DNA of 35,008 nucleotides, from positions 1 to 35,008 of the IMG/VR virus record IMGVR_UViG_3300031812_000010. One strand, written 5' to 3'. The notes under the pieces are model-generated. The model was not told where the DNA came from. It ran no database searches and saw nothing but the letters and a program-made list of their open reading frames with translations. Numbering within the stretch: the first letter of the stretch is position 1; the number at the start of each line of letters is the position of its first letter. Source of the DNA: a virus. The translations under genes and the position numbers were made by a program. Of the stretch, positions 1 to 16,385 are shown piece after piece.

Positions 1-138
1 AAACGTCCGCAAAGCTTGCTCGTAATTGCTGAACGTGGAGCGCTCCAAACCTCCAGGCAAGTTCAGCAAAATCGGAGAAACTCCAAAAACCGCACAAATT
101 CTGGATTCCAACTTGGAATCCATATCGCTAAAATCGAA
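1..138. repeat. Left copy of the 138-bp end overlap
   Basis: Bases 1-138 match 34871-35008 except at one position (G at 127, A at 34997). The repeat lies inside the portal gene and the portal reading frame continues without a break when the two ends are joined. This supports a circular or circularly permuted 34,870-bp genome rather than a window cut from a longer chromosome. The mismatch is synonymous in the portal frame (a Ser codon, AGC or AGT), which looks like a population variant captured at the two contig ends. A true direct terminal repeat is less likely because it would split an essential gene. Confidence 0.9.
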
Positions 139-906
139 TTCCTCGAAAGAAGTTCCAAGCTTCTCTATGTCCGCATCTCCGTCCAGAACCGCAGGCATCG
201 ACCAATTGCGCATACCTCCATATTGTGCCGACCAACGTTCTCGTAATCTTTGGATCTGCTCTGGCTGGATAAACCCTTTTAGCTTTAGCACGATTGGAGG
301 AAGTCCTCCGCTCGACAGATATTGATATTGGAAATTGGTAATCGCATTGTCTAAAGCGACTAAAGGATAAACCACTTTGGCAGGAGCCAAAGCGTTCAAG
401 TGGTACAAAGGATCGTAAAGGTGGAAGTAAACCACATCCTCCATCGGAAAAGTTTTCACCTCTGAACCCGTTTGGTATTTCCAGAGGATCGCATCCTCCG
501 TAACCACTGCCTGCAACCAATCTGGTCGCAATCGCCAAAGTTGCGCAGGTTTGTTGACCTGATTGCGAACCTTTTGCCATGCCGAGCAACCAAACAAGCT
601 CAAATCCACAATAATATATCTCCAAAGGTCAGCTTCGTTCATCAAAGGATTCGGCTTTTGGATCAACCGCACAGCAGGATCTTCCTCCTCGAGAAGTTTT
701 CCATCACGAAAAACGTTTAGATGCACCTTGCTCGCGCTGTTAGCTTTGAAGTTAACAGCCGCGAAGACGATTGGGTTTTTCTTGTATGCTTCCTCAACAA
801 GCTTTTCCGATGATTCCGTCCCAAAACTCCAGCTCCCCCAATTAGACGGAAAAAGCACGCTCGACCAGGCAAATTGTTTAACACGATTGAAAAACCTCTT
901 CAGCAT
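1..906 (-). CDS. Phage portal protein, HK97 family, N-terminal 302 residues (cut by window edge)
   Basis: The portal forms the dodecameric ring at the capsid vertex through which DNA is packaged and ejected. The ATG at 906-904 follows a GGAGGT ribosome site and lies 10 bp after the TerL stop. The open frame reaches base 1 with no stop, and joined to 34870 it continues to a stop at 34400, giving 458 residues in all, a usual length for PF04860-type portals. The start MLKRFFNRV, the segment AYKKNPIVFAAVNFKA, the DPLYHLNALAP stretch and the later PAVLDGDADIEKLG are the sequence pattern I recognise as HK97 portal. Gene order TerL-portal-head protein-protease-capsid agrees. The break is a linearisation artefact, not a truncation. 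Confidence 0.92.
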   Translation of the reverse strand, partial: MLKRFFNRVKQFAWSSVLFPSNWGSWSFGTESSEKLVEEAYKKNPIVFAAVNFKANSASKVHLNVFRDGKLLEEEDPAVRLIQKPNPLMNEADLWRYIIVDLSLFGCSAWQKVRNQVNKPAQLWRLRPDWLQAVVTEDAILWKYQTGSEVKTFPMEDVVYFHLYDPLYHLNALAPAKVVYPLVALDNAITNFQYQYLSSGGLPPIVLKLKGFIQPEQIQRLRERWSAQYGGMRNWSMPAVLDGDADIEKLGTSFEEFDFSDMDSKLESRICAVFGVSPILLNLPGGLERSTFSNYEQALRTF

Positions 907-916
907 ATTACCTCCA

Positions 917-2311
917 TCACACGTAAACTCCTACGCCAAATTTGACCCCGTGCAAAGCCAAAGCGATCGCAGCTAAAGCGTCCGACAAGTGTCCACTCCC
1001 AAAAACGTTGTCCATCGTCGAAAACTTAAGCTCGTTGTAAAGATATCGAATCATCGGAAATCTGATTTTTCCGTTCTGTATCCAAACAATCGCACGGGAA
1101 AGCAACTCTGTCCTATCCCTGCCGACCATAATGAAAGGATTGGCAGAGGTTTCTAAGTAATCTTGTACCACATCCCCCAGACCCGTTCCATCATGAGTGG
1201 AGCGGAATGGCTTGTACATGCGGTTTACATAGTCCAACCTTTCTAGCATAAGCTTCCAAGGTTGTTGTTGTCGGCGCTCAAAGGTAACCAATCGAAAAGG
1301 ATCGCAATCGATCCGGATGGTTACGATAACCGTATAGTCTTCCTTGCGAGCCCAATCCGCTCCTGTTACATAGATCCCCTCTGGGGCTGTTGGCTCCACT
1401 TGGATAAACTGGTTTACATGACCTTCCCAAACCTGAGAGACATCGAAAATCTGCAGCAAAACCTCGTCCGAAAAAACCCGATTGCTAGGATTCGGCTCCT
1501 GCAGCTCATATTCCATGTTCCACATTTGCTCGGTTATCTCGTGCTTTTTGCGCTCGATTTCCTCTTCCTCCAGCCAGCCATCTATCGGATTGGACGATTC
1601 CTTATAGCACCATGTAAAAATTTTCCAATCCCTTTGCTTGGCTCTGCGCATGATCTCGCTCATTGTCCCATCCGCATACTGCCAAGTAGACGACAAAACC
1701 GTCTGCGATTTTATGCCTTTCTTGGAAAGTGTCTGACCAAGAGCGGCTTCTAATACGGAAAGATCCATCTCATCGATCTCGTCCATGCGCAACCTTTGGG
1801 GATGGGGTCCTCGCACACTGCGTTGGGAAGCCATAAGTGCCTGGATCGAATTGCCCATGACGAACCGAGTCTCCGTCTGGGATGGATCGGAAGCTAAAAG
1901 GTATCTCGGAGCAGAGGGTCTGGACAGAAACTGCTGGATATAACGATGCACACGTTTGGATTGCTCCCCAGAGCCTCCCAAAACAGCCACGTCCGCTCCC
2001 AGCAAAATGGACTCCGTCAATCCCAGCAAAGCCAGCAAAAAGCTCTTTCCACCAAATTCTCTGCTGGCATGCCACACTGCTATGCTGGAACGCGCAAAAA
2101 ACGCATGCGCGAACGCTTCCCACGGAGAACAGTGCTCTGGGCAGACTCTGGTTCGAGGAATGGTAACTCCCCACGCCAGTTGGACAAATTTATGCAGCGT
2201 TTCTTCGGTTTGGATTGGAAGAATGACCTTTACTGTATTGCTAGAATTTAGACTAAGATTCGACTTCTTTGCTTCCATTGTCAGAGAGGTCAAAACTCCC
2301 ATGGGATACAT
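917..2311 (-). CDS. terL: Terminase large subunit (TerL), ATPase and nuclease
   Basis: TerL is the DNA packaging motor that pumps DNA into the prohead and cuts the concatemer. Counting from the first ATG at 2311 (464 residues), an ATPase P-loop of terminase type, SREFGGKS, is at about residues 83-90, and a Walker B with catalytic acid, RMDEID, is at about 175-180. The C-terminal RNase H-like nuclease shows acidic residues in GADWA (about 319), THDGTG (about 374) and SDALA (about 444). The start is uncertain: ATGs at 2311, 2302 and 2278 are all in frame and none has a clear Shine-Dalgarno. The gene overlaps the preceding gene, so translation is probably coupled to it. A perfect 25-bp palindrome covers the first candidate start. 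Confidence 0.93.
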   Translation of the reverse strand: MYPMGVLTSLTMEAKKSNLSLNSSNTVKVILPIQTEETLHKFVQLAWGVTIPRTRVCPEHCSPWEAFAHAFFARSSIAVWHASREFGGKSFLLALLGLTESILLGADVAVLGGSGEQSKRVHRYIQQFLSRPSAPRYLLASDPSQTETRFVMGNSIQALMASQRSVRGPHPQRLRMDEIDEMDLSVLEAALGQTLSKKGIKSQTVLSSTWQYADGTMSEIMRRAKQRDWKIFTWCYKESSNPIDGWLEEEEIERKKHEITEQMWNMEYELQEPNPSNRVFSDEVLLQIFDVSQVWEGHVNQFIQVEPTAPEGIYVTGADWARKEDYTVIVTIRIDCDPFRLVTFERRQQQPWKLMLERLDYVNRMYKPFRSTHDGTGLGDVVQDYLETSANPFIMVGRDRTELLSRAIVWIQNGKIRFPMIRYLYNELKFSTMDNVFGSGHLSDALAAIALALHGVKFGVGVYV

Positions 2312-2612
2312 CTTGTAACAAGATGTATCGATTGCCTTGTGCGTCCACCAAATTATCGAAATAAGTTTTGCGAGTTAGCCATTCCTGCACAGTCTCGACC
2401 AAGCTGAGCCACTCTCTTGGATTTAGCTCCATCAGAATCGGCTCGCCTGGCATGGCAGGGTGCGGAGGGAAAACTGCCTTACCATGCACTAGCAGATCTG
2501 CGAGAATCTGCGCAATGACTTCTTTGCGCTTTTTGCGCTGGGATGGGGTTATGATGTAACCCTCCAGCTTGCGTTCCACCAGTGCTTGGACGGAGATCTT
2601 AGGTTTCCGCAT
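2253..2612 (-). CDS. Candidate terminase small subunit (position only)
   Basis: This 119-residue protein is the first gene of the late operon and overlaps the start of TerL, the place normally held by the small terminase. That subunit recognises the packaging site and loads TerL on DNA. I do not recognise a family signature. The N-terminal third is basic and probably helical (PSQRKKRKEVIAQILADLL), followed by a Pro-rich turn and the segment NPREWLSLVETVQEWL, then an acidic tail. The ATG at 2612 has no well-placed Shine-Dalgarno but lies 7 nt after a perfect TATAAT, so it may be read from a leaderless transcript. Function is inferred from context only; it could be another small head protein. 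Confidence 0.6.
   Translation of the reverse strand: MRKPKISVQALVERKLEGYIITPSQRKKRKEVIAQILADLLVHGKAVFPPHPAMPGEPILMELNPREWLSLVETVQEWLTRKTYFDNLVDAQGNRYILLQDVSHGSFDLSDNGSKEVES
2305..2329. repeat. Perfect 25-bp palindrome at the TerL start
   Basis: Two 12-bp arms, GATACATCTTGT at 2305-2316 and its exact reverse complement at 2318-2329, flank one central base. The element lies inside the candidate small terminase gene and covers the most upstream candidate ATG of TerL. In the minus-strand mRNA it would fold into an 11-bp stem with a 3-nt loop just before the alternative TerL starts at 2302 and 2278. It could be a translational control hairpin for TerL or a protein-binding palindrome such as a packaging site. 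The sequence alone does not decide between these. Confidence 0.75.
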
Positions 2613-2619
2613 GAAATTA

Positions 2620-2625
2620 ATTATA
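2620..2625 (-). promoter_or_regulatory. Perfect -10 box 7 nt before the first late gene (possible leaderless start)
   Basis: The minus strand reads TATAAT at 2625-2620, then 7 nt, then the ATG at 2612. With normal -10 to +1 spacing, transcription would begin at or next to the start codon. There is no good -35 at 17 bp upstream; a stable hairpin occupies that area. An AAGG just upstream of the box is too far from the ATG for an ordinary ribosome site. Confidence 0.45.
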
Positions 2626-2637
2626 CCTTAAGTCAGA

Positions 2638-2663
2638 GCAGCCGTCTCCGGAAAGACGACTGC
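2638..2663 (-). other. 10-bp stem-loop in the late-operon leader
   Basis: GCAGTCGTCT and AGACGGCTGC (minus strand) pair over 10 positions around a 6-nt loop. One pair is G-U in the minus-strand RNA but would be a C-A mismatch in a plus-strand RNA, so the fold suits a leftward transcript. No T-run follows in either direction, so it is not an intrinsic terminator. It may stabilise or regulate the leader of late mRNA started near 2707. Confidence 0.5.
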
Positions 2664-2713
2664 CCATTGATAGGGAGGGACAGGAGGGAGGAACGGAAAG
2701 GAATCCTGAGTGT

Positions 2714-2742
2714 ATTATAACGCATTTTTCTCTTACGGAAAA
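2714..2742 (-). promoter_or_regulatory. Putative late promoter (P3)
   Basis: The minus strand has TATAAT at 2719-2714 preceded by GAGAAAAATGCGT. This resembles the GAGAAAATCCGC stretch in front of the -10 box at 14312, and the TATAATACA core is shared. A usual -35 hexamer is not evident; the -35 position falls on a repeat TTACGGAAAA (plus strand), suggesting an activator or operator. Transcription from here would give a leader of roughly 95 nt for the whole structural operon. Confidence 0.5.
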
Positions 2743-2801
2743 GGTTTTCTGGATTTACGGAAAAACGACTTGGAAGTGGATTCGATCGATTTGTCGGAAA
2801 A
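2733..2801 (+). repeat. Direct repeats TTACGGAAAA upstream of the late promoter
   Basis: TTACGGAAAA occurs at 2733-2742 and 2755-2764, exactly 22 bp apart (two helical turns). A related TGTCGGAAAA lies at 2792-2801. The first copy overlaps the -35 position of the leftward promoter at 2719-2714. Regular spacing next to a promoter suggests operator sites. Confidence 0.5.
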
Positions 2802-2841
2802 TTTGCTGTGCAATTTTTTAATATTCGGTTTTTCGAATCAT

Positions 2842-3229
2842 CCATGGGGGTCTAAATTCATTAAAATTTCATTAAAACTCGACTACCATGGATCTTCGAT
2901 CCATGGTAGATCCATGGGGGATCCATGGGGGTTTAGAGCCAGATTCTATTTTTTCATTAATGAAAGCTTAAAGGCAGATAAGGAAATCATTAAAAACTAC
3001 CATGGCTACCATGGAAATCACACTTTAAAGAGTCATCGAACACATGTTTAAGCATATAATTACAATGCGGAGTATTTTTCCATGGTTTCCATGGTAGCCA
3101 TGGTAGCCATGGTAATTTTTTCGAACATTAGATCCACTTTCGAAATCCATGCATCCAGTCTTAAAAGTGTTTTAGTTAAGTCCAATCCCCATAATTATGT
3201 TTCAACACCATTTTCCATGGTATCCATGG
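2842..3229. repeat. Array of 13 CCATGG palindromes (non-coding)
   Basis: CCATGG begins at 2842, 2886, 2901, 2912, 2923, 3000, 3009, 3080, 3089, 3098, 3107, 3215 and 3224. Four copies at 3080-3112 repeat every 9 bp, pairs at 3000/3009 and 3215/3224 also have 9-bp spacing, and 2901/2912/2923 have 11-bp spacing. Flanks are often CTA before or TAG after, giving an extended palindrome CTACCATGGTAG. A larger inverted repeat with 12-bp arms spans 2883-2909. The region lies between the terminator of the small leftward operon and the late promoter, and I see no credible gene in it. Origin, packaging site and late operator are all possible. Confidence 0.85.
2859..2880 (+). repeat. Two 11-bp phased CATTAAAA repeats
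   Basis: CATTAAAATTT at 2859-2869 is followed directly by CATTAAAACTC at 2870-2880. Unit length and sequence match the GATTAAAATTT units at 4256-4288 apart from the first base. They may be a weaker version of the same binding element, about 140 bp upstream of the late promoter. Confidence 0.4.
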
Positions 3230-3234
3230 TAGTA

Positions 3235-3277
3235 GACTTCAAAAACAAAGAGACCCACGTTTTTTCCGTGGGTCTCT
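3235..3277 (-). terminator. Intrinsic terminator of the small leftward operon
   Basis: An 11-bp perfect stem (3249-3259 with 3267-3277, AGAGACCCACG and its complement) has a 7-nt loop. On the minus strand it is followed by TTTGTTTTTG. It lies just after the stop codon at 3294, so it ends transcription of the three genes starting at 4181. It also insulates the late promoter region from that operon. Confidence 0.9.
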
Positions 3278-3293
3278 GCAGGGGAAATGGAAT

Positions 3294-3470
3294 TTAATTT
3301 TCTACGCTGGTATCCTCATCTCCTTCAATTTCCACTTCGCAGATGAACAGATTATTGGAATCAGATAGGATTATCCTTCTTGGGTACATTTTCGGTAGCG
3401 GATGTGGGATCTCTTCCACCAGCTCCCATACTCCTGATTCATTCCGTCTCCAAAGGGTTACATTATTCAT
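3294..3470 (-). CDS. Small unknown protein, 58 aa
   Basis: The ATG at 3470 follows AAGGAGTCCTGAA, an excellent Shine-Dalgarno of the type used by the early genes of this phage, and the frame ends at TAA 3294-3296 just before a terminator. The product starts MNNVTLWRRNESGVWELVEE and has an acidic tail (EVEIEGDEDTSVEN). It sits 1 bp after the neighbouring gene's stop as third gene of the leftward operon. I recognise no family. It may be a host-interaction protein, as small acidic early phage proteins often are, but this is only inference. Confidence 0.75.
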   Translation of the reverse strand: MNNVTLWRRNESGVWELVEEIPHPLPKMYPRRIILSDSNNLFICEVEIEGDEDTSVEN

Positions 3471-3471
3471 T

Positions 3472-3726
3472 TCAGGACTCCTTTTCTACCCAGGTGAGTT
3501 GGTATTTCTTGAGAACAAATTCTAAAGCTTCTTCTTTGCTTTCGGGCTCTCCAGGAACCCCTCTACCCCAAGTGGTAGGGCAATTTGGATCCTGGTCCTC
3601 GAACTGGAAAACGTGCGCTCGCTTTATTCTATCATACATGTAAACGACTCGGGATTGCAGTCCATATTGGTTTTCTACTATGCCGAGGACTTGGGGCTCT
3701 GAGAATTGCTCAAATCTTTCTTTCAT
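3472..3726 (-). CDS. Small unknown protein, 84 aa
   Basis: Second gene of the short leftward operon, 14 bp after the zinc-ribbon gene and directly abutting the 58-aa gene. The ATG at 3726 is preceded by AGGAAGGAA, a moderate ribosome site. The product has an aromatic and charged middle (YMYDRIKRAHVFQFEDQDPN) and a C-terminal helix KEEALEFVLKKYQL. No signal peptide, membrane segment or known motif is visible. Probably soluble, function unknown. Confidence 0.7.
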   Translation of the reverse strand: MKERFEQFSEPQVLGIVENQYGLQSRVVYMYDRIKRAHVFQFEDQDPNCPTTWGRGVPGEPESKEEALEFVLKKYQLTWVEKES

Positions 3727-3740
3727 GGCTGGATTCCTTC

Positions 3741-4181
3741 CTATTTGATTTTAGACAGCAGTGCTTGTGTTAGAGGATCTGTGCGAACTTTCACGTCGTT
3801 TATACCAAGAGTCTGCAAAAACTCTAAAATTTTGATCAACTCCTCCCGATCTTCTGGGATTCGGATTCCCCAAGCTTTCTTGGGAGTCGTCCCCAGAGCA
3901 TCTGTGTAATACTCCATCCACTTGAAACCGTGCTGCTTCAGGGTTTCCTTGATAGAATAGGTGTCACCCTTGCTGATAACGATCCAAGCCCCTCCAGAGA
4001 ACATGTTATTTACGACTTCCGCCTCATAGGGCTCTTCTTTCTTAAGATTCCGATAGCACTCGGGGCAGACCATGTTGGTCTCATACCATCGGATTTTTCG
4101 ATCGCGCTCTTTGCTGGGTCCAAAGAGTTCTACGGTGTGCTCCCCGTGTCCGCAACTGTATTTTACTGTGTACTTAGCCAT
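3741..4181 (-). CDS. Zinc-ribbon protein of unknown function, 146 aa
   Basis: First gene of the short leftward operon, with AAAGGAG upstream of the ATG at 4181 and a strong promoter 30-40 bp further up. The N-terminal 45 residues show a split zinc-binding motif, CGH at 10-12 and CPEC at 39-42. This resembles small zinc-ribbon proteins common on phages and plasmids (motif CGH..., VELFG, R, then CPEC). The rest (about residues 55-146) looks like a small alpha/beta domain with ISKGDTYSIKETLKQHGFKW and a helical C-terminus. Early expression suggests a host-takeover or regulatory role, but there is no direct evidence of function. Confidence 0.8.
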   Translation of the reverse strand: MAKYTVKYSCGHGEHTVELFGPSKERDRKIRWYETNMVCPECYRNLKKEEPYEAEVVNNMFSGGAWIVISKGDTYSIKETLKQHGFKWMEYYTDALGTTPKKAWGIRIPEDREELIKILEFLQTLGINDVKVRTDPLTQALLSKIK

Positions 4182-4219: not shown

Positions 4220-4255
4220 ATTATAGCGGATTTTTGCAAAAATACCTTAAAATAA
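4220..4255 (-). promoter_or_regulatory. Leftward early promoter P1
   Basis: The minus strand carries TATAAT at 4225-4220 preceded by AAAAATCCGC. Transcription would start near 4213, about 30 nt before the ATG at 4181. Some 70 bp of this region is nearly identical to the promoter in front of 14349: TTATTTTAAG, TATTTTTG, AAAATCCGCTATAAT in the same order. There is no clear -35 hexamer; phased GATTAA repeats lie 30 bp upstream of the -10. Confidence 0.8.
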
Positions 4256-4288
4256 GATTAAAATTTGATTAATGTTTGATTAAAATTT
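4256..4288 (+). repeat. Three tandem 11-bp GATTAAAATTT repeats
   Basis: GATTAAAATTT (4256-4266), GATTAATGTTT (4267-4277) and GATTAAAATTT (4278-4288) follow each other without gaps. One unit per helical turn places all copies on the same DNA face. They stand immediately upstream of the leftward promoter P1, and the same phasing is found upstream of the promoter at 14312. The likely role is binding of a phage or host transcription activator; an origin iteron role is an alternative. Confidence 0.75.
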
Positions 4289-4410: not shown

Positions 4411-5604
4411 TTGCGCAAGATACTTTGGATCCCACCAGGCAACGGAAAGACGAGAATTGCGATAAACCTTATGCAAAAATGCAATGCGGAAAACTTACTT
4501 GTCGTGGCTCCACTGTCTCTGCACGAGTGGTGGAGGAGGGAGTTGAATAAGCAATTTTCCGCTCCTTATCGGATAACTTCTTACGACAAAGACCCCGACT
4601 GGGAAGAGACTTTTTCCGCAATTATTTTCGATGAATCCATCCTGTTGAAAAATCGAAAAACAAAGAGATTCCAACGCTGGAAAACTTACGTCCAGCGCAC
4701 TAAACCGCAACATATACTGTTGCTGACGGGCAACCCGATTGGCAAATATGCGGACGACTTATGGACGCAATTGCACTTGCTGGATCCTAAGAGGTTTTCC
4801 TCTTATTGGCGCTGGACGGAAGAGCACTGCTACGTGCAGCGCTATTGGGGTTGGGAAGTGGTAGGTAACCGCTCATCTTTGGATAAGGTTGTGCATTCTG
4901 CTTATCCGTACATTTTGTACGACGAGAATCCACACAATGTGCAAATTCCAGATTTTCTTTTCCACAGCATAAACGTTGGACTTTCTTCCGTTACCTTAGA
5001 TTTCATTTCCAAATTGTATCGGGATTTATATTTAGCAGAGTCTCCCATAGCGAACAAACTTACTTTGCTGTTGCGGACGATGCAAATTGTAAGCGATCCG
5101 TTTGTTTTGGATCTAGCTTTGCCACGGGATCGTTATAGGGCATTGCTAAATGTTTTGGAAACTGTGGAAAAACCCGTTTTGGTTTTCACGTCCTTCAAGC
5201 ACAACCTTTACCATCGGACTGTGGACGTGCGGAAAAAGTTTAGAACCGAGTATCTAACAGGGGAAACCAAACCTTTCGAACGACAAACCATAATGGATCG
5301 TATCAACGATAGAGATTTGGAAGTGGTTTTTCTCACCCCTGGGGTGGGAAGGTTTGGATTTAATGCGCCTGATTGCTCTTTAGTGTTTTGGGATTTACCG
5401 ATTGCTTACGATTATTTTTACCAAGCGATCCACCGAGTCAGGCGTCTCACTTCGACCAAAAGGTCTGAAGTTTTCTTGCTCCACAGCGAAGTGAAAAGCG
5501 ATAAAGTACTTTTGGATTTGCTCTTGCGCAAATCGAAATATACTTTGCACTCTGTATTGAAACAAATTCTGCTAGAAAAGGAGGTTCAAAATGTTCCCGA
5601 ATGA
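4411..5604 (+). CDS. SNF2-type (superfamily 2) DNA helicase/ATPase
   Basis: A 397-residue ATPase with Walker A PPGNGKT at 8-14, motif Ia VVAPLSL at 31-37, a DEAH-type box as DESI at 74-77, motif III LLTGNPI at 104-110, and a C-terminal helicase lobe ending in the motif VI-like QAIHRVRR. Phage SNF2-like helicases act in replication start, fork remodelling or recombination. It opens the replication operon. The start is odd: no ATG or GTG is available, and the only candidate is TTG at 4411, 14 nt after AAGGAG, with a TAG in frame at 4399. The protein therefore begins almost directly at Walker A and lacks the usual upstream Q-motif helix. An unusual start codon or a small sequence error is possible. 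Confidence 0.85.
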   Translation: MRKILWIPPGNGKTRIAINLMQKCNAENLLVVAPLSLHEWWRRELNKQFSAPYRITSYDKDPDWEETFSAIIFDESILLKNRKTKRFQRWKTYVQRTKPQHILLLTGNPIGKYADDLWTQLHLLDPKRFSSYWRWTEEHCYVQRYWGWEVVGNRSSLDKVVHSAYPYILYDENPHNVQIPDFLFHSINVGLSSVTLDFISKLYRDLYLAESPIANKLTLLLRTMQIVSDPFVLDLALPRDRYRALLNVLETVEKPVLVFTSFKHNLYHRTVDVRKKFRTEYLTGETKPFERQTIMDRINDRDLEVVFLTPGVGRFGFNAPDCSLVFWDLPIAYDYFYQAIHRVRRLTSTKRSEVFLLHSEVKSDKVLLDLLLRKSKYTLHSVLKQILLEKEVQNVPE

Positions 5605-5854
5605 AGTCTTGTCCAGGAAAATAACCGAATTGGAAGATTTGATAATCCAGTGGAAAAAGTTTTCCGATCATGTTCCTAAAGGTGTCCGATGGGCAGCGCA
5701 GCACTTGCTGGAAGAGTACGACTCCAGAGAGTTGCCCGTCTGGGTAAAGGTTATTTGCCACACACCAGATTCGGACTGGGACGATACTCTGCAGCAAATT
5801 TACTACGAGATCCAGTCTGACAGAGCTTATCGGGAAAGCTTGCGAGACTTATGA
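5591..5854 (+). CDS. Small unknown protein, 87 aa
   Basis: The ATG at 5591 follows AAAAGGAGG and overlaps the helicase end by 14 bp; its own end overlaps the nuclease start by 4 bp (ATGA). This tight coupling supports a real gene in the replication operon. The product is mixed helical and acidic, with ITELEDLIIQWKKF near the N-terminus and a DSDWDDTLQQIYYEI segment. No motif is recognised. It could be a partner of the helicase or nuclease beside it. Confidence 0.8.
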   Translation: MFPNEVLSRKITELEDLIIQWKKFSDHVPKGVRWAAQHLLEEYDSRELPVWVKVICHTPDSDWDDTLQQIYYEIQSDRAYRESLRDL

Positions 5855-6555
5855 CGTTTACCATTAACCCAAGCAAACTCTCTGCCTTTATCCGATGCAA
5901 ACTAAAGTATGCTTTTGGACGTTGGGAAATCCCCGCTCCACCCGTGGAAAGCATAACTTTAGGCTCTGCGGTGCATACCTTGCTCCAAGAATATTACGAG
6001 AAAGGCATTTGGAATTTGGACGCCATAAAAGACACAGAATTTGACCTGAGCTGGTTCATTAGTCAATATGTGAGTAAAGCCAATATCGGTAAGGTTATTT
6101 CCGTGGAGCGAAAGCTGGAATATCCCCTATCCGAGGATCTGACTCTAAATGGAAGGATCGATCTAACGATAAAGGATATGGCGGATAAAATCTGGGTAGT
6201 GGATCACAAAACTACCCGAAAATCTCCCGTCGCGATAACGTATGCTATGTCTCTGCAGGGGATTTTCTACGTGTGGCTTTCTAGACAGTTGGGAGAGAGT
6301 GTGGATGGCGCGATGTATAACGTTTTGGTTTTGGACACCGCACGGAAAAAGCTGGAAGTCCAAAGGTACTGGCTATTGTATAGCCAAGAGCAATTAGATG
6401 CTTTCCAAGCAGAGCTGATGGAATGGATCAAGGAGGTGCTGGAAGTAGAGCAAAAATATATTTTACCCAAACAATTACCCCGTCGAACGGCTTTGTACAC
6501 ATGCCATGAGGAGTGCCCATGGCTGGAATATTGTAACAAAATCTATCCGTGGTAA
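5851..6555 (+). CDS. Cas4/RecB-like PD-(D/E)XK nuclease with Fe-S cluster cysteines
   Basis: A 234-residue nuclease of the Cas4/AddB/RecB group that would process DNA ends for recombination or replication. Visible motifs are GSAVHTLL with His42, VERKLE, GRIDL with Asp104, VVDHKTT with Asp118 and Lys120, and Gln136 in QGIFY. Four cysteines frame the fold, Cys16 near the N-terminus and Cys218, Cys222 and Cys228 near the end. This is the split 1+3 layout that holds a 4Fe-4S cluster in Cas4 and AddB, although the spacing here is CX3CX5C. It is encoded between the helicase and the RecA-fold ATPase. There is no CRISPR array, so a Cas4 adaptation role is not indicated. Confidence 0.88.
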   Translation: MTFTINPSKLSAFIRCKLKYAFGRWEIPAPPVESITLGSAVHTLLQEYYEKGIWNLDAIKDTEFDLSWFISQYVSKANIGKVISVERKLEYPLSEDLTLNGRIDLTIKDMADKIWVVDHKTTRKSPVAITYAMSLQGIFYVWLSRQLGESVDGAMYNVLVLDTARKKLEVQRYWLLYSQEQLDAFQAELMEWIKEVLEVEQKYILPKQLPRRTALYTCHEECPWLEYCNKIYPW

Positions 6556-6569
6556 CAGAAAGGAGTCGT

Positions 6570-7274
6570 ATGGCTATAAATATCCAGAAGTTTGACCGTA
6601 AAACGTACTTACAGAAAATAAAATTCCTAATCTATGGAGAGTCGGGTGTGGGTAAAACGACTTTCGCGAGCACGTTTCCAGATCCGTTGTTTTTGGACAC
6701 TGAGCATGGTTTGGCTTCTTTGCAGATGACTGTGGATTACATCACCGTCGACAATCCAAAAATAATGGAGGAAGCCATAGAGTTTGCCAAGCACACCGAC
6801 AAGTACCAAACGATCGTGGTGGACAGTGTGACCCGATTGCAAAGTGTGCTGATGGAAAACATCCTCGAAGACTACCCCGACATTAAAAGACCTTACGACA
6901 GTTTGCCGACTATGAACGATTACAACAAGTTGATACGGGATTTTACCCAATACATTTATGACCTGATAGCTTTGGACAAACTGGTCGTGCTTATCGGAGT
7001 AAACACTGCCAAGTCCTTCGAGGAGGACGTTATCCAACCTGCCTTCACAGGTCGCATGACCAGTAAGCTGATCTGTGCCGCAGTGGATATGGTCGGTTAT
7101 ATGTTCAAAGTCCTCCACGAAGGCGAAACCAAACACGTTTTGTCTTTTGATATGCCGAACTTTGTGACTAAGTGCAGGATTGCCCATAACCTTCCTCGTC
7201 TTATCCAAAATCCAACGTATCAAAAAATCTTATCTTACATGGAGGTGCAAAATGGAAATCAGTCTGGAGCGTAG
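6570..7274 (+). CDS. Sak4-like RecA-fold ATPase (phage single-strand annealing / recombination protein)
   Basis: A 234-residue P-loop ATPase of the AAA_24/Sak4 group. Walker A GESGVGKT is at 23-30, FLDTEHG at about 41-47 and Walker B TIVVDSVT around Asp85. Sak4 proteins are reduced RecA relatives that promote strand annealing together with a cognate ssDNA-binding protein, which fits the next gene. I chose ATG 6570 because AAAGGAGTCGT precedes it; a GTG at 6549 would add seven residues before that ribosome site. The end overlaps the next gene by 23 bp. Confidence 0.88.
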   Translation: MAINIQKFDRKTYLQKIKFLIYGESGVGKTTFASTFPDPLFLDTEHGLASLQMTVDYITVDNPKIMEEAIEFAKHTDKYQTIVVDSVTRLQSVLMENILEDYPDIKRPYDSLPTMNDYNKLIRDFTQYIYDLIALDKLVVLIGVNTAKSFEEDVIQPAFTGRMTSKLICAAVDMVGYMFKVLHEGETKHVLSFDMPNFVTKCRIAHNLPRLIQNPTYQKILSYMEVQNGNQSGA

Positions 7275-7764
7275 CGCAAACGTTTTGGAACCTGGCAAAT
7301 ATACCGTTTACCCTATTCGAATCTCCCCTGGAGAGGGCAATTCAGGGTATCCGTATATCCAGGTCGTTTGGATGGAATTACAAAGCCAGCAGCTCATCTG
7401 GGATTACTTGTCGCTTTCTCCGAAGGCACGCTGGAAATTGGATGCGATTCTAGATTTGATCGGTGCTCCGACCTCAGGGAAGGTTTCCCTAGAGCAGTTG
7501 GAGTCGACCTTAAAGAAATTCTCTTTCCAGGTGTCCGTAATCCAGGAGAAATACGAATCCCGCTGGCAAAACAAAGTGAAAGGATATCTGACAGTGTCCC
7601 TGCTGAACGAAGAGGAAATCCAGCAATTGGAGGAAGTTTCCAAACCGATCTTGGAACGTCTGTCTAAAGCTTCCGAAGATATCGACATCGTGGAGCCGAT
7701 GCAGGACGTTCTAATTCCTCCCAAGCAGGGTGTTTTCGAGGATTTACTCAAAGAGTTGCAATGA
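7252..7764 (+). CDS. DUF669-like single-strand DNA-binding protein (probable)
   Basis: A 170-residue acidic protein starting at ATG 7252 after GGAGGTGCAAA. The N-terminal part (LEPGKYTVYPIRI, then YPYIQVVWMELQSQQLIWDYLSL) matches the beta-rich OB-like pattern of DUF669 proteins, which regularly sit next to Sak4/AAA_24 genes in phages and act as ssDNA-binding partners. The C-terminus is strongly acidic (SEDIDIVEPMQDV, then FEDLLKELQ), as in SSB tails that recruit other proteins. Family assignment is by pattern and neighbourhood, so it is moderate. Confidence 0.65.
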   Translation: MEISLERSANVLEPGKYTVYPIRISPGEGNSGYPYIQVVWMELQSQQLIWDYLSLSPKARWKLDAILDLIGAPTSGKVSLEQLESTLKKFSFQVSVIQEKYESRWQNKVKGYLTVSLLNEEEIQQLEEVSKPILERLSKASEDIDIVEPMQDVLIPPKQGVFEDLLKELQ

Positions 7765-8168
7765 AGCTGGTAGTCTTAGATCTTGGGATAAACACAGGTA
7801 TAGCTTGGCTACGGAAGGACGACAAAGTGGTTTATTACAGGACTGCTTGCGTCCCTTTGCAAGAATCCACTAAAGTCGTCCTTCCAGACCCAGAGGTTTT
7901 ATATGTGATCGAAGATTTCCCTGTTTGGAAATCTGTAAAATACGTAAAAATTTGGCTGAAAGAACTTTTGGAAAACTTCGGAGTAAATACCCTATGGGTC
8001 AGACCTGACGTTTGGATGCATTCTATGCGCAGGTACACAGAGCACTTGCCCAAACCCGGAACCCCACACGAACGAGATGCTTTGTGGCTTGGGTTGTACA
8101 CTTTAGAGCAGCAATGCAAAGAGAAAAAAGGAGTGCTACAGTGGGATATAAGAGTCTCGCAATTTTAG
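7761..8168 (+). CDS. RuvC-like Holliday junction resolvase
   Basis: A 135-residue RNase H-fold nuclease. The first strand VVLDLGINTGIAW carries Asp7, the second acidic site is Glu51 in YVIEDFP, and the last motif HERDALWLG contains His103 and Asp106 in the RuvC order. It would resolve branched DNA before packaging. It is shorter than E. coli RuvC (173 aa) but normal for phage versions. It overlaps the preceding gene by 4 bp and runs 28 bp into the flavoprotein gene. Confidence 0.82.
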   Translation: MKLVVLDLGINTGIAWLRKDDKVVYYRTACVPLQESTKVVLPDPEVLYVIEDFPVWKSVKYVKIWLKELLENFGVNTLWVRPDVWMHSMRRYTEHLPKPGTPHERDALWLGLYTLEQQCKEKKGVLQWDIRVSQF

Positions 8169-8944
8169 GATCTGGAGCTTCTTCTGCGGTGGTGGCTTAT
8201 GTTTTCCGACAGATTTTTCCGCAAATAGACATTGACATCTGGACGATGCGGAGAGAAGTCGTGGTTTACCCGTTTACCAGCATCGAAAGCGAATACTTCG
8301 AAAGAAAATTTCCTCTGTTGCCGAGAATACTCTGGAAAATACATTGGACGGTATCTCCCGAAGACTACAAAAAGAATCGCTGGGGAGATTTGCACCATCT
8401 GGTTGGAGATTCCAATTTGTCTAAGGAGTATCCAACAGGTCAAAGGTACTATTTAGAACCCCAAATTCTGTGCAACTGGCTGATAGGGATATCTGACGTG
8501 CACTGGAAACTCTTAGCCAGTCCATTTACCCAAGAAGAAATCCAAAGTCTGACGGAGAAATACACATGGGTTGTGCAAACCTTTCCAAATCCAAAACATG
8601 CACAACCAGTCTGTTGGGAATGGATCGTCGCATTTCCTAATGGAAATTGCCCAGAAGAGAAAACTTTGTGCTTAACCCACGGAGGAAATCCACCAGAAAC
8701 TCGATGTTGGGAATACGGAAAGATTAGATTCCAGGAATATCGTATCCACTACGAACCACCGATTTTCCCTGATGAACTTTATCGAATAAAGTTTAAAATC
8801 CTGCACCCTAGCACAAAACCAATTTCTCCCGTGGATGAGGTGTTTCCGAACCTTATTTACATTGGCAGATATGCTTTGTGGGATTTTTCTTTTTCCATTG
8901 AATCTATACCAGATTTGCTTTACAAAATATTAAATACTGATTAA
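8141..8944 (+). CDS. Rossmann-fold flavoprotein, possible FAD-dependent oxidoreductase
   Basis: The GTG at 8141 follows AAAAGGAG and gives 267 residues; the open frame extends further upstream only inside the RuvC-like gene. The N-terminus SLAILGSGASSAVVAYVF is a beta-alpha-beta dinucleotide-binding start (GxGxxS), followed by a second strand IDIDIW. The C-terminal segment NLIYIGRYALWDFSFSIESI resembles the second FAD-contact region of glutathione-reductase-type or UDP-galactopyranose-mutase-like flavoenzymes. The middle is not recognised. It is followed by a DUF1599/Nmad1 protein and ThyX, so a role in a modified pyrimidine pathway is a reasonable inference but not shown. No membrane segment or signal is seen. 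Confidence 0.6.
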   Translation: MGYKSLAILGSGASSAVVAYVFRQIFPQIDIDIWTMRREVVVYPFTSIESEYFERKFPLLPRILWKIHWTVSPEDYKKNRWGDLHHLVGDSNLSKEYPTGQRYYLEPQILCNWLIGISDVHWKLLASPFTQEEIQSLTEKYTWVVQTFPNPKHAQPVCWEWIVAFPNGNCPEEKTLCLTHGGNPPETRCWEYGKIRFQEYRIHYEPPIFPDELYRIKFKILHPSTKPISPVDEVFPNLIYIGRYALWDFSFSIESIPDLLYKILNTD

Positions 8945-8954
8945 GGAGGTTGCT

Positions 8955-9266
8955 ATGGACGAAACGAAAGAATTACAAATGTTCGATTCTTACTGTGCGC
9001 AAGGAAGAGAAATCTTCGTGCGCAAAAACAAAGAGTACGGTGGATCTTACCACTGGATGGGTTTAATTGGAGTGGTAAGTGAGATCGCTGGAATTTCCAT
9101 GCGGTTGGTGAGTGCAGTTTTCCAGAATTTTGGTAACATCGAACCCAATCGAGACTCTGTAAAAGACGCTTTGCTGGATCTGCACAATTATGCCAGCATG
9201 GGTCTAATTTGTCTGGAAAACGACAACATCCTAGGAGAATTTTTGCAAGGAGCTAAAAAACGATGA
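8955..9266 (+). CDS. DUF1599 / nucleotide modification associated domain 1 (Nmad1) protein
   Basis: A 103-residue protein, starting after AAGGAGGTTGCT. The pattern REIFVRKNKEYGGSYHWMG followed by the later DALLDLHNYASMGLICLE matches DUF1599, renamed Nmad1 because its genes travel with DNA base hypermodification genes in phages. The biochemical activity of the family is not settled. It lies between a flavoprotein and ThyX, with a 4-bp overlap with ThyX, so the three are co-translated. It may help sense, trap or act on modified nucleotides. Confidence 0.75.
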   Translation: MDETKELQMFDSYCAQGREIFVRKNKEYGGSYHWMGLIGVVSEIAGISMRLVSAVFQNFGNIEPNRDSVKDALLDLHNYASMGLICLENDNILGEFLQGAKKR

Positions 9267-10066
9267 AGCCGAAAATTTTAGTCCACCAAGAACCTTATCG
9301 AGATAAAATCCTGCGATGGTTCACAGGAGTTACGGCAGAAGTGCATCTGATTAGCATGACGCCCAATCCCAAAAAGCTTATCGCCCTCGGAATGCGCGCC
9401 TACACTGGACATTACGAGACAGACATTCCAGAAGACTTGGTAGAACCGTTCTTCCGAGATTCCAGGACAGCTTTGGCGACACCTTTGGAGTGGGTGAATT
9501 TTGTTTTCCTCCTTAAAGACGTCCCAAGGTTTTTCACCCATCAGCTTGTGCGGAACAGGATTGGAGTGTCGTTTGTGCAGCAATCAACTCGCAACAAAAC
9601 GGAGCAGCTTTACTTCGATTTCCTTTTGCCACCGTCTTATGTTCGAGCAGGATATAGCTTGGAGAAAAACTTGGATTTAAACCAGCTAATACAAGCCAAT
9701 CTTGCAGCCGCTAGAGTGATTATCGACGCTTACCATACAGAGCACTTGTCTGCCGAGGATGCTAGATTCGTTTTGCCGCACAATTTTCTAACTCACATTT
9801 ACTGGCAGACGAACTTGGTCGCTCTTAATAGAGTGTTCGATAAACGTTTCTGTTGCCAGGCGGAAAAAACGGTATGGCTCCCTGTCCTGTTACAAATCAT
9901 GCGATTATTGCAATCGAATTGTCCAGGTTTAGAACAGGTTTTGTCTTCTCCGTTTTTGCGAGGTGAAAGTTGTGGTTATACCGCGAGTTTCGACAAACCC
10001 TGCACCTGGAAAGGAAAGACTCGGGAGGAGATCCTGAATGAATCGATATCTGATTCTGGATCTTGA
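9263..10066 (+). CDS. thyX: Flavin-dependent thymidylate synthase ThyX, divergent
   Basis: ThyX makes dTMP from dUMP with methylene-tetrahydrofolate, FAD and NADPH. The 267-residue product has the ThyX signature region HQLVRNRIGVSFVQQSTR, a form of RHRX7-8S in which the central His is Asn. The earlier conserved LEH segment reads LEWVNFVF, again losing a His. The later R.VLP...T pattern is kept (DARFVLPHNFLT), as is KRFCCQAE, matching the dUMP-site Arg region. Two changes at flavin or substrate positions suggest an altered enzyme, perhaps for another pyrimidine product. The overlap with the polymerase gene (29 bp) and with the Nmad1 gene (4 bp) indicates joint expression. Confidence 0.85.
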   Translation: MKPKILVHQEPYRDKILRWFTGVTAEVHLISMTPNPKKLIALGMRAYTGHYETDIPEDLVEPFFRDSRTALATPLEWVNFVFLLKDVPRFFTHQLVRNRIGVSFVQQSTRNKTEQLYFDFLLPPSYVRAGYSLEKNLDLNQLIQANLAAARVIIDAYHTEHLSAEDARFVLPHNFLTHIYWQTNLVALNRVFDKRFCCQAEKTVWLPVLLQIMRLLQSNCPGLEQVLSSPFLRGESCGYTASFDKPCTWKGKTREEILNESISDSGS

Positions 10067-11843
10067 AACGACTGGGTTGGATTGGTGGAGAGAAAAAATT
10101 GTAGGAATAGGTATAAGGTTGGAGCCAGAGGGTAGGGAAGAGTTTTTTCCTTACCCTGATCCAAGCAGACTTAGGGAATACTTGTTGAAGTACAGAGATC
10201 GGGTATGGATCGGACACAACATTAAGTTCGACTTACTCTTTATCCATTACCCTCCAGAGATTGTTTACTCTCTGCAAATAAGAGACACAATGGACATGGT
10301 GCACTTGTACGATTCGAGGCTTTCTAAATCTTTGGTAGAAGTGGAGAAAGAGTTTCTCGGATCGGAAACAAAATTCTGGCACCTACATCAGGAAAACAAG
10401 CGGAAAATAAAATCTTGGGACTTGGATAAAGTAAAAGAATATTGTCTGAACGACGTGCTGATAACTTGGAACGTGTTCAGAAAATTAGAACCAGAATTGG
10501 AAAAACTGGAAGTTTATCATATTTTCCGCAAAAATATGGAATTGCTCAAGGTGTTATATGAAATCGAATACTTTGGATTTCTTTTCGACAAAGAGGAAGC
10601 GGATCGCAGTGTCAAAATTTTGGAAGAGAATCTAAAATTACAAGAGGAACAGTTTTTCCAGAAGGTTGGTGTAAGGTTCAACTGGCGTAGCCATAAGCAG
10701 TTGAGTTATTACGCTTATGATTATCTGGGTTTTCCACGACCTGAGAACCCTTTTTTGGATCCGATTACAGGGGAGGACTTGGGTCGAAATCCAGAATCGC
10801 GCAAATATAACAGCACGATGGTATCCAGTTCTATATTAGTGGGTAAAGCAAAACACCCATGGGCTTTGGACATCCAGTTCTTGCGGGAAACGGACAAGGC
10901 AATAGATTTTATCCAGCGTCTTAGCAGTTTGACTGACGACAAAAACTTTCTGCATTCTTCTTTTAACATTAGTGGAACTAGAACAGGTCGAATAAGTTCC
11001 AGCAGACCGAACTTGCAAAACATCATGAGTGGGATGCGAGGGTTTTTTTTGTCTTCCTCTTTCCTGGATGCAGAAGCCGTGGAAGCTATCCTGAACCGCA
11101 GCCAAGCTTACAATGTGCGCAGACTTTTCATCGCCCGTCCAGGATACCAAATTGTGAGCATCGATTACAAGCAAATGGAAATGCGCATGTTTGGAATTGT
11201 TTCCAAAGATCCCCACATGCTGGAATTTTTGCAAGCAGGCACAGACATCCACAGCCAAATCGCGCAAAGGGTCTGGGGTAAAGCTGACGAGATAACCCGC
11301 GATTGGGCTAAGCAGATCGGATTTGGTTTGATTTATGGCATGACGATGGGGTCGTTGCGCTTTCGGCTAAACCTTACTCTGGAGGAGGCTAAAAAAATCA
11401 CTTCCGATTACTGGAACACTTTTCCAACCATTCGACCCTGGCTTTTCGGAGTGGTGGAAGAGTGTAAAAAGAAAGGTTATTTGCGATACTGGTCAGGTAG
11501 AATTTGGAGAGAGGACAAAGTAGAAAAAATGTATCGTGGAGCCAATGCACTGATCCAGGGAGGCTGTGCAGATCTGCTTTCCGTCGCAGTGCTACGGGTA
11601 AACAATTACATCAAGCGCAACAATCTGGATATTCGCATGGTAAATCTAGTGCACGACGAGATAGTTTTCGAAATGCGGGAAGAAGATTTCGAACACATTC
11701 CAAAAATCGCTAACATCATGCAAGTAGAGGACTTGTTTGGAATACCTTTCATCGTGGACGTGAAAATCGGCAGATCTCATGGAGAATTGGAGTCGTATGG
11801 AAAATCTGATACAGGAACTGGAAAACAGATTTTTTCACAATAG
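10038..11843 (+). CDS. polA: Family A DNA polymerase with 3'-5' exonuclease
   Basis: A 601-residue replicative polymerase without a 5' nuclease domain. Exo I is LDLETTG (Asp8, Glu10), Exo II HNIKFD (Asp65) and Exo III YCLNDV (Tyr135, Asp139), so proofreading looks intact. Polymerase motif A is SIDYKQMEMR (Asp376), motif B runs from Arg421 to Tyr433 with Lys425 and Phe429, and motif C is VHDE (539-541). The Phe in the helix O position is the E. coli-type residue that discriminates against dideoxynucleotides. About 30 residues (330-360) separate LQNI from RRLFIARPG, longer than usual here. The ATG follows GGGAGGAGATCCTGA. Confidence 0.95.
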   Translation: MNRYLILDLETTGLDWWREKIVGIGIRLEPEGREEFFPYPDPSRLREYLLKYRDRVWIGHNIKFDLLFIHYPPEIVYSLQIRDTMDMVHLYDSRLSKSLVEVEKEFLGSETKFWHLHQENKRKIKSWDLDKVKEYCLNDVLITWNVFRKLEPELEKLEVYHIFRKNMELLKVLYEIEYFGFLFDKEEADRSVKILEENLKLQEEQFFQKVGVRFNWRSHKQLSYYAYDYLGFPRPENPFLDPITGEDLGRNPESRKYNSTMVSSSILVGKAKHPWALDIQFLRETDKAIDFIQRLSSLTDDKNFLHSSFNISGTRTGRISSSRPNLQNIMSGMRGFFLSSSFLDAEAVEAILNRSQAYNVRRLFIARPGYQIVSIDYKQMEMRMFGIVSKDPHMLEFLQAGTDIHSQIAQRVWGKADEITRDWAKQIGFGLIYGMTMGSLRFRLNLTLEEAKKITSDYWNTFPTIRPWLFGVVEECKKKGYLRYWSGRIWREDKVEKMYRGANALIQGGCADLLSVAVLRVNNYIKRNNLDIRMVNLVHDEIVFEMREEDFEHIPKIANIMQVEDLFGIPFIVDVKIGRSHGELESYGKSDTGTGKQIFSQ

Positions 11844-14256
11844 GTTGAACTACGCGACAGCGCAAATTGGAGCCAGTCGTCTGGCTTATTATCCAACCAA
11901 GCAAGAAATAACCGCAGAAGCAATCGAAAAGCATCTAAACGGTGAGATTGCTATTGCAGTTTTCCCGATTTTCGAAAACACCGTAAAATGGATGGCTTTC
12001 GATATTGATTCGAATAACTCTGTGGTAAGTGCTTTCGATGCGCAGAGACTTTCCGATTTTTTATCTTCCATGTCCATTCCCCACATGGTGGAGTTCAGCG
12101 GCAGGAAAGGATATCATGTATGGATACTTTTGGAAGACAAAATTTCTTCTTCCGTAGCTTTTACGTGGTTGCAGCAGATATTGCTTAACTTTAAACACTC
12201 TGCCAGGATCGAAATTTTCCCAAAGCAACCCTCCATCAGAATATCGGCTATGGGAAATCATCTAAAATTGCCTTTGGGGTTACATCCTGTTACCAAGAAT
12301 CGATCGTTTTTCGGTAAATTTAATTCCACAGGTGAATTCGTCCCTGAGGAAAATTTCGAATGGCAAATTTGCTCGATAGAGGATTTGCACAAGCAATTAC
12401 CGTTGTCTTCTTCCGAACAGTTGGCTACAATTTTGTCCCAATACTGGACGGAAGGAAGTCGGCACTCCATGGCTTTAGCTTTGTCTGGGTTTTTAGCCAA
12501 AACGGGTTGGTCGCAAGTGCAAACCATCAATCTGATAACAGAAATATGTAAAAAGTCTGGCGACGCAGAATTGGAAAACAGACTAACCTGTGTTCGGGAT
12601 ACTTATAAACGTTTTGCGAGAGGAGAGCCAACCCTTGGATACAGTCAACTTGTGGATTTACTGCCTGTTGCAAAACTAAAAGAGATCCTTGCGTTGGTTT
12701 TCGACACGTTACCCCAAGAGCAAATCCGTCTAATCGATCGAATCCGATTGGACAGGAAACCCTCTTTCCTTAAAGTGCGGGAAATAACAAAAATTTTGCA
12801 CACCCATTTACTGGACAATGGCAAAATATTCTACGACTCCGCTCGAGACCAGTTATTCTGGTTTTCTCCGCAGCAGAGCGTAATTCCTTTGGAATCCCCA
12901 GAGTTTTTTTATTATCTGTACAAAGAATTTGGAATTTCTGTTGCAGAGGATTTTGGGCGAAAAGTTTTTAAGGATGTTACTTTGCTATGCTCTAAAGAAG
13001 CAGAATCGAAAAGAGTACATCTAATAAGCCACTGGGACAGTACAAAAAAGGTTTTATACATAAACCCAGAAGGAAACAAAGTTTTCGTTCTAAACGGAGA
13101 AACCATCCTGCAGCAAAGCAACGGGGAGGAAGTTTTCTTCCAAACGCGTATGCATTTGGATTTGGACTGGTCGGATTGGAAAGAGATCGACGTGTGGTCA
13201 GTCTTGTCGGATGACTTGACTTTCCAATCTTCTGAGCTAGCCAGCGCATCTCCAGAGGAGCAAGTACAGTTGCTCCGTTTATGGATTTTGTCTATTTTCT
13301 TCCCGGAGTTGATGCGGACAAAACCCTTGTTGTTGGTGGTAGGAGATCCAGGATCTGGAAAAACAACTGCTGTGCGCAGAATCATAAAACTTATCGAGTC
13401 ACCAGAGTTGGATGTTTTGGAATTTGTTTGGGACAAACCGGATGCGCTCAGGACTTCTATAACTCATCACAGAGTTCTGTGTTTGGACAACATGGAAAAC
13501 ACACGGAGCAACTGGTTGCTAAATATATTGGATGCGATTTCCACAGGATCCTCGATCGAACTCCGAAAACTTTATTTTACCAACGAGATGGTTCGACTGC
13601 AGCCTGACTGCTATGTAGCCATAACGGCTATTAGCTCACCGTTTTCCGAAGAGTCGTTTTTCGACCGAGTTCTGCCAATCGATTTGCGCAGAATCAAAAA
13701 CCCTCTGCCAGAATGGGAAATCCAAGAATATCTACAAAATAATTGGAAATATCTGTGGTGTGATATGCTGCAAAAGCTGAACAAGGTTGTTCGAGAAATC
13801 CAAACCCATCCATCCAAAGAAATTATCCGCTTGCGGATGGCGGATTTCGCCTCTCTTGCTAGCAGGGTAAAGACAATTCCTCCCAACATTTTGGACTATG
13901 AGATCTTGCAGAGCGGTTTAAATAACCTTTCCAACAGACAAGTGCAAAAAATGGCGGAGGAAAGTCCATTTGTTACGATCCTGCTGGAGTGGCTGGAACG
14001 GTATCCAAAGGAATCCAGAGAGTTTAAAACTCTACGGGAACTCTCTGACGATCTCATTCCAATCGCAAAATTTCGAGGACTAAAATGGAAATGGTCTAGC
14101 ACGGTAAGTTTAGCCAACCATTTGCGTGCGATCGAGTTGGAATTGGACAAACTAATCGGTGTGGAGATTAAGATGGATAGGGTAAATGGCAGAAAGGTGG
14201 AAAAATACAGGTTTGGGTATAAGCTATACGGAAAAAATGTTGGAGAAGAGCATTAA
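11797..14256 (+). CDS. Primase-helicase: archaeo-eukaryotic-type primase domain plus P-loop helicase
   Basis: An 819-residue protein. The N-terminal primase-polymerase domain (about 20-200) has the catalytic pair FDIDS (Asp69, Asp71), SGRKGYHVW (101-109) and KLPLGLHP, the pattern seen in TOTE-conflict/PrimPol-type AEP primases. A linker (about 210-290) contains YWTEGSRH and GDAELENR. The C-terminal helicase domain shows Walker A GDPGSGKT (516-523), Walker B LCLDN (561-565) and a distal arginine-rich DRVLPIDLRRI. It would prime and unwind DNA for the phage polymerase whose gene it overlaps by 47 bp. ATG 11797 is chosen because TTGGAGTCGT precedes it; ATG 11779 adds six residues and lacks a site. 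Confidence 0.87.
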   Translation: MENLIQELENRFFHNRLNYATAQIGASRLAYYPTKQEITAEAIEKHLNGEIAIAVFPIFENTVKWMAFDIDSNNSVVSAFDAQRLSDFLSSMSIPHMVEFSGRKGYHVWILLEDKISSSVAFTWLQQILLNFKHSARIEIFPKQPSIRISAMGNHLKLPLGLHPVTKNRSFFGKFNSTGEFVPEENFEWQICSIEDLHKQLPLSSSEQLATILSQYWTEGSRHSMALALSGFLAKTGWSQVQTINLITEICKKSGDAELENRLTCVRDTYKRFARGEPTLGYSQLVDLLPVAKLKEILALVFDTLPQEQIRLIDRIRLDRKPSFLKVREITKILHTHLLDNGKIFYDSARDQLFWFSPQQSVIPLESPEFFYYLYKEFGISVAEDFGRKVFKDVTLLCSKEAESKRVHLISHWDSTKKVLYINPEGNKVFVLNGETILQQSNGEEVFFQTRMHLDLDWSDWKEIDVWSVLSDDLTFQSSELASASPEEQVQLLRLWILSIFFPELMRTKPLLLVVGDPGSGKTTAVRRIIKLIESPELDVLEFVWDKPDALRTSITHHRVLCLDNMENTRSNWLLNILDAISTGSSIELRKLYFTNEMVRLQPDCYVAITAISSPFSEESFFDRVLPIDLRRIKNPLPEWEIQEYLQNNWKYLWCDMLQKLNKVVREIQTHPSKEIIRLRMADFASLASRVKTIPPNILDYEILQSGLNNLSNRQVQKMAEESPFVTILLEWLERYPKESREFKTLRELSDDLIPIAKFRGLKWKWSSTVSLANHLRAIELELDKLIGVEIKMDRVNGRKVEKYRFGYKLYGKNVGEEH

Positions 14257-14317
14257 TCGAACACTAATCAAATTTTAATCTTATTTTAAGATATTTTTGG
14301 AGAAAATCCGCTATAAT
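14248..14317 (+). promoter_or_regulatory. Rightward promoter P2 with phased TAATC sites
   Basis: TATAAT at 14312-14317 lies about 30 nt before the AAAGGAGTC ribosome site of the gene at 14349. TAATC occurs at 14254-14258, 14265-14269 and 14276-14280, exactly 11 bp apart; the first overlaps the primase stop. The last copy ends 31 nt before the -10. The region is almost the same as the leftward promoter P1 read on the opposite strand. No -35 hexamer is evident, so activator-dependent transcription is likely. Confidence 0.8.
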
Positions 14318-14348
14318 ACAAACATAAATTCACAAGAAAGGAGTCCCA

Positions 14349-14795: not shown

Positions 14796-14806
14796 GAGGC
14801 ATACCT

Positions 14807-16376: not shown

Positions 16377-16385
16377 GAGGAACCC

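Follow-up and report, generated by a model that had tools for sequence, protein, structure and literature searches.

A repeated half-site array at two promoters of a tailed phage, possibly activated by a host PhoB-type response regulator

The DNA analyzed here is a virus record of 35,008 bp from a tailed phage (IMG/VR IMGVR_UViG_3300031812_000010, positions 1 to 35,008); we refer to this whole stretch as the window. Positions 1-4181 form a left-directed arm with the terminase and small genes. A right-directed arm (4411-17527) encodes a helicase, a PD-(D/E)XK nuclease, a Sak4-like protein, a ThyX-like protein (labeled by eye from its sequence), a family A polymerase and an AEP-type primase, followed by small genes. 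Beyond it, left-directed lysis and structural genes extend to the end of the window. The primase gene (11779-14256) specifies an 825-aa protein with an AEP-TOTE domain and an ATPase region, and its relatives in cultured phages amount to three weak matches.

Two promoters, P1 and P2, are the subject of this work. P1 reads leftward out of the divergent gap before 4181, and P2 reads rightward immediately 3' of the primase gene. The first gene of the P1 operon (3741-4181, minus strand) encodes a 146-aa protein of unknown function that has CxxC and CGH motifs, an N-terminal match to PHROG 16123 and a predicted fold with a mean pLDDT of 80; two more small orphan genes lie downstream (3294-3726, minus strand). 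The P2 operon (14349-17527, plus strand) contains small genes of unknown function together with genes for a pentapeptide-repeat protein and a DUF932 protein. None of the genes in either operon has an evident phosphate role.

The left arm has further noncoding features of its own. Thirteen of the window's 20 CCATGG palindromes are concentrated at 2842-3229, a noncoding stretch before the terminase genes; many stand at 9- or 11-bp steps, with the consensus CCATGGTAG, and the stretch could be an origin, a packaging site or an operator. Within it, at 2857-2877 on the minus strand, is a pair of TTTTAATGAAA-type units 11 bp apart that are related to the half-sites described below and have no TATAAT nearby; the corresponding region of the divergent related phage L105 carries TTTTTAATGATCTTTTAATC. 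Upstream of the terminase genes, both the window (2617-2632, minus strand) and L105 (about 4046-4061, minus strand) have TTAAGGTATAATTAAT, a candidate second (late) promoter class.

What precedes P1 and P2? On the plus strand, positions 4256-4288 hold three 11-bp units, GATTAAAATTT, GATTAATGTTT and GATTAAAATTT, the middle copy differing at two bases. Read in the direction of P1 (minus strand), they contain TTAATC at 4278-4283, 4267-4272 and 4256-4261, with starts at 4283, 4272 and 4261. P2 has the same layout on the plus strand, with TTAATC at 14253-14258 (overlapping the stop codon of the primase gene), CTAATC at 14264-14269 and TTAATC at 14275-14280, starting at 14253, 14264 and 14275. A preliminary description of the window had reported these three phased repeats, and the coordinates bear it out. 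It had overlooked a fourth half-site, 11 bp past the third: TTAAGG at 4245-4250 in P1 and TTAAGA at 14286-14291 in P2. This unit occupies roughly -38 to -33, where a -35 box would usually be. A fifth position in the same register is degenerate and weak (TTGCAA, 4234-4239, in P1; TTGGAG, 14297-14302, in P2). The -10 element is TATAAT in both promoters (4220-4225, minus strand; 14312-14317, plus strand). It follows the final TTAATC by 30 nt in P1 and 31 nt in P2, exactly the distances first given, and lies 58 and 59 bp, respectively, from the start of unit 1; every step between half-sites is exactly 11 bp. The reported lack of -35 boxes likewise held, as a scan for sigma-70 -35/-10 pairs found none at P1 or P2.

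These arrays are not expected from base composition. The window contains two triples and five pairs of TAATC at 11 bp; in 300 dinucleotide shuffles triples never appeared, and the average number of pairs was 0.10. Within the window, the core motif occurs at P1 and P2 only. A further promoter, P4 (4327-4369, plus strand), had been proposed as a member of the class. It has a single TTAATC, with TAAAAT 31 nt later; because further half-sites in register are absent, we removed it from the class. A search of Rfam for RNA elements gave no match.

Using the polymerase and the core motif as queries, we gathered related contigs and found 13 cassettes in all: three each in the L004 contig and L105, two each in L404, the L005 contig and the window, and one in L003. 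Unit 4, as TTAAGR, is kept in all 13, and unit 3 is YTAATC in 12. The spacing from the start of unit 3 to the -10 element is 36, except in P2 and its L004 copy, where it is 37. Units 3 and 4 are thus the best conserved part of the cassette, with unit 4 more conserved than units 1 and 2. This conservation reaches phages with mostly 28-48% protein identity to the window. Between L105 and the window, identity is 28-45% for most replication proteins; the helicases share 41% and the terminases 74%. Even so, the L105 cassette at 6747 differs from P1 at three positions in about 75 bp. In the L005 contig (polymerase 55% identical), units 1 and 2 no longer contain TAATC, and TTTTAATCTTATTTTAAGGTATT is intact in both cassettes. 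No cassette is present in L006-L010, which are more distantly related. On L004 (3013-4140), the P1 gene is present in two copies that are 52% identical, each behind its own cassette, which indicates that the promoter has spread together with the gene. We conclude that P1 and P2 are, with near certainty, copies of a real, conserved cassette.

Similar arrays are found outside this group of phages. Five further viral loci (L046, L047, L071 from IMG 3300033143, L096 and L118) have TTAATC/CTAATC arrays that end exactly 9, 20 or 31 bp before TATAAT. Four of these (L046, L047, L071 and L096) were compared with the window at the protein level, and none has a detectable protein in common with it. That unrelated phages have the same arrays suggests that they have adapted to a factor of the host.

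Do cellular genomes use the same array? A scan of species-representative genomes, in which a triple of TAATC at 11 bp had to be succeeded by TATAAT 8-32 bp on, returned 44 stretches. Of 42 loci, 22 had a gap to TATAAT of 9-10, 20-21 or 31-32 nt, where 24% would be expected (p = 7e-5); these clusters are successive 11-bp steps. Because the 11-bp step was preset in the scan pattern, only the phase to the -10 element counts as evidence here. We then counted TTAATC-N5-TTAATC-N5-TTAA, with its reversal as control, in phylum samples that were chosen independently of the pattern except for one seed genome each. Armatimonadota gave 14 matches, in 10 of 151 genomes, with none for the reversed pattern; Omnitrophota gave 10 versus 0 (97 genomes) and Desulfobacterota 6 versus 0 (99 genomes). 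Cyanobacteria were not enriched (17 versus 10 reversed in 117 genomes), and 151 Chloroflexota genomes contained neither form.

The genes behind the arrays differ between phyla. In Armatimonadota, arrays precede three genes for PstS-type binding proteins (L435, L437 and L438), one of them followed by a permease-like ORF, as well as a porin O/P gene (L436) and a phosphoesterase gene (L432). At L430 and L431 the array is followed by a DUF1559 pseudopilin-like gene and then by a glycerophosphodiesterase (GDPD) gene. Two more loci have only a pseudopilin-like gene in view, and another is truncated; DUF1559 pseudopilin-like genes thus recur behind these boxes (L410, L430, L431 and L434). The pstS promoters have a -10-like hexamer 9 bp past the last half-site. 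L431 reads TTAATC/TTAATC/TTAATC/TTAACA/TTATCG with TATACT at 59, to be compared with 58 in P1 and 59 in P2. Since a phosphate gene set lies behind these arrays, TTAATC at 11-bp steps is the predicted Pho box of Armatimonadota. We found no report of Pho boxes in this phylum in a literature search that reached few subscription journals.

Elsewhere the array has other company. Most Omnitrophota loci (L458-L465) have a gene for a conserved 107-117-aa protein plus a PtsN-like gene, and arrays in this phylum may instead precede a response-regulator gene. In Desulfobacterota (L416 and L466-L470) they precede a conserved small protein, often with HtrA; the names in both phyla were assigned by eye. The same array lies upstream of HtrA genes in Halanaerobiales. 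No classical pho genes stand behind the Omnitrophota and Desulfobacterota arrays, and we could match these regulons to nothing described. Hence, the motif marks a family of regulators and is not exclusive to PhoB.

Response regulators of the OmpR/PhoB family typically act at direct repeats that recur every 11 bp and take the place of a -35 box. P1 and P2 have this build: at least two half-sites, repeated directly about every 11 bp, stand shortly before the -10 element where the -35 box would be. The helical phase between half-sites and -10 element is fixed as well (36 or 37 in the phages; gaps of 9-10, 20-21 and 32 in cellular genomes). It is in Armatimonadota only that the box stands before phosphate-starvation genes. 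The last clear half-site of the phage promoters is 19-20 bp from the -10 element, not about 9-10, and only a degenerate site lies between. We consider it very probable that a response regulator of this family uses the cassette as its activator array.

The preliminary description had proposed a phage-specific activator system or an early-promoter class, shared by several phage promoters and with all sites on one helix face. An activator-type class of promoters with sites on one helix face, common to several operons and with the -35 box replaced, agrees with our results, and an early timing is conjecture; its restriction to phages does not agree, given that the same half-site, 11-bp step and -10 phase occur in cellular genomes of several phyla and that the same arrays occur in phages with no detectable protein in common. 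Might the phage nonetheless encode an activator that binds the repeats, as T4 does with MotA? The cassette is repeated within each genome, and an 87-aa protein (5591-5854) accompanies it wherever the loci of the phages span that region and is absent from the cassette-less L006-L008 and L010. However, this protein is predicted to be all-helical, with four helices and no winged helix, and its model has no significant fold match in the PDB. A Pfam scan of about 30 window proteins detected no winged helix, other HTH or DNA-binding regulator domain, although several small proteins remain without an assigned function, and the arrays serve cellular genes as well as phages that share no proteins. We regard a phage-encoded activator as unlikely. 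A different possibility is that a host regulator of the same family other than PhoB acts here, such as one for HtrA-type envelope stress or a PmrA-like protein. The arrays before HtrA genes in Desulfobacterota and Halanaerobiales and before the PtsN-like operon in Omnitrophota fit this idea, and TTTAAT-CTTAT-TTTAAG in the cassette fits the YTTAAK direct repeat described for PmrA (PMC10927774). Yet the Armatimonadota pho set is the only functionally coherent gene set behind the array, and one of its promoters (L431) matches the phage architecture in register. A regulator other than PhoB is a serious alternative, if a rather doubtful one.

Explanations that dispense with a specific activator fared worse. 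P1 and P2 could be constitutive early promoters aided by phased A/T tracts, as UP element or curved DNA, and indeed the region is A/T-rich, has tracts every 11 bp and lacks a -35 box. But the C in TTAATC and the G in TTAAGG belong to the conserved letters, and unit 2 of the L005 contig is no longer A/T-rich (TTGACC, TGGTCC) while units 3 and 4 are unchanged; conservation did not follow A/T content in preference to specific bases, which makes this explanation very improbable. That the repeats are an artefact of chance or recent duplication with no regulatory role is an idea we can practically dismiss. Viral contigs do give at least 120 TAATC triples at each of the control steps of 10 and 12 bp, so that the 11-bp step alone is not special and we make no claim of a virus-wide enrichment of 11-bp triples; against an artefact stand the empty shuffles, the fixed -10 spacing and the conservation between divergent phages. 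Integrase arm-site arrays were also considered and set aside, as a tyrosine-recombinase motif matched in only 3 of 105 viral loci with a triple TAATC.

We therefore favor activation by a regulator of the host. That the regulator is host encoded seems to us highly likely; that it is PhoB in particular is the better bet, held with less assurance. On balance, P1 and P2 are probably activator-dependent sigma-70 promoters run by a host OmpR/PhoB-family regulator, most likely PhoB. As copies of one such cassette, each would present its four 11-bp half-sites (TTAATC, YTAATC, TTAATC and TTAAGR, about -71 to -33) as a head-to-tail array, which the phosphorylated host regulator would occupy cooperatively. 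Units 3 and 4 would be essential for binding, and units 1 and 2 would strengthen it. The bound regulator would recruit RNA polymerase through a contact with sigma region 4 that substitutes for the -35 box, and transcription would start about 7 nt past TATAAT. Two accessory operons would in this way answer phosphate (or envelope) stress of the host, and the phage probably reads the nutrient state of its host.

Which host this might be was sought by several routes. Among 291 Armatimonadota genomes there was no close relative of the phage and no CRISPR-like match; the DNA matches there came to one of 33 bp, outside any repeat array. Terminase homology (22-35% identity only), DNA matches to Omnitrophota (mostly within the polymerase gene) and the nearest cultured phages were each uninformative.

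Tentatively, and with somewhat less than even confidence, we propose that an uncultured, non-cyanophage lineage has spread one PhoB-dependent cassette through its genome, placing whole non-phosphate accessory modules, perhaps for host takeover, under the phosphate-starvation system of the host, and that phages without detectable shared proteins have reached the same promoter design. If so, control of phage transcription by a host sensor is a recurrent design, not a cyanophage speciality, and a starvation signal of the host could act as a gate on infection where nutrients are scarce. With the rule of TTAATC half-sites, an 11-bp step and a -10 phase, promoters that may respond to stress can be picked out in uncultured phages, and Armatimonadota gain a predicted Pho box.

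How does the cassette compare with known systems? In T4 middle promoters, a site for the activator MotA replaces the -35 box before a normal -10 element; each has a single MotA box, and the activator is phage encoded. The cassette shares the activator site in place of the -35 box; we saw neither a single MotA box nor a phage activator. PmrA recognizes YTTAAK direct repeats, with sites described as pairs (PMC10927774). Units 3 and 4 of the cassette, TTTAAT-N5-TTTAAG, resemble this PmrA/BasR box, but the cassette has four half-sites and no PmrA target genes. The cyanobacterial regulator SphR binds at least three 8-bp repeats (PMC1906773), its Pho box being PyTTAAPyPy(T/A) with 3-bp linkers and hence an 11-bp period (PMC1906773, PMC10976474), and E. 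coli Pho boxes stand 10 bp before the -10 element (PMC1906773). The SphR box and the cassette have in common a TTAA core, the 11-bp period and three or more repeats. They differ in that the cassette runs TTAATC and then TTAAGR, that the strict consensus, a cyanobacterial one, fits three of the eight P1 and P2 units (units 4 end in GG or GA), and that the array is not enriched in the 117 cyanobacterial genomes. The Armatimonadota Pho-type promoters (L430-L432 and L435-L438) share TTAATC, the 11-bp step and a -10 element in phase, and in L431 five units agree with the phage register; unlike the phage promoters, they serve cellular phosphate-acquisition genes, and the last half-site of the pstS promoters is 9 bp before the -10 element.

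The closest parallel in phages comes from cyanophages. Gel shifts showed binding of host PhoB to promoters of S-PM2d; the Pho-box genes comprise S-PM2d genes and P-SSM2 pstS and include hypothetical and replication genes, and prediction of a Pho box in a phage was no reliable guide to binding (PMC10976474). For phages other than cyanophages, our search, which reached few subscription journals, found no report of PhoB control of genes resembling that proposed here. Unlike the cyanophage Pho boxes, the cassette is accompanied by no phosphate gene and no sign of a cyanobacterial host, and it is known here from its sequence alone. It also differs in having near-identical repeats within each genome, four regular half-sites and conservation across divergent phages. 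Common to both are half-sites in phage promoters that recruit, here by prediction, a response regulator of the host.
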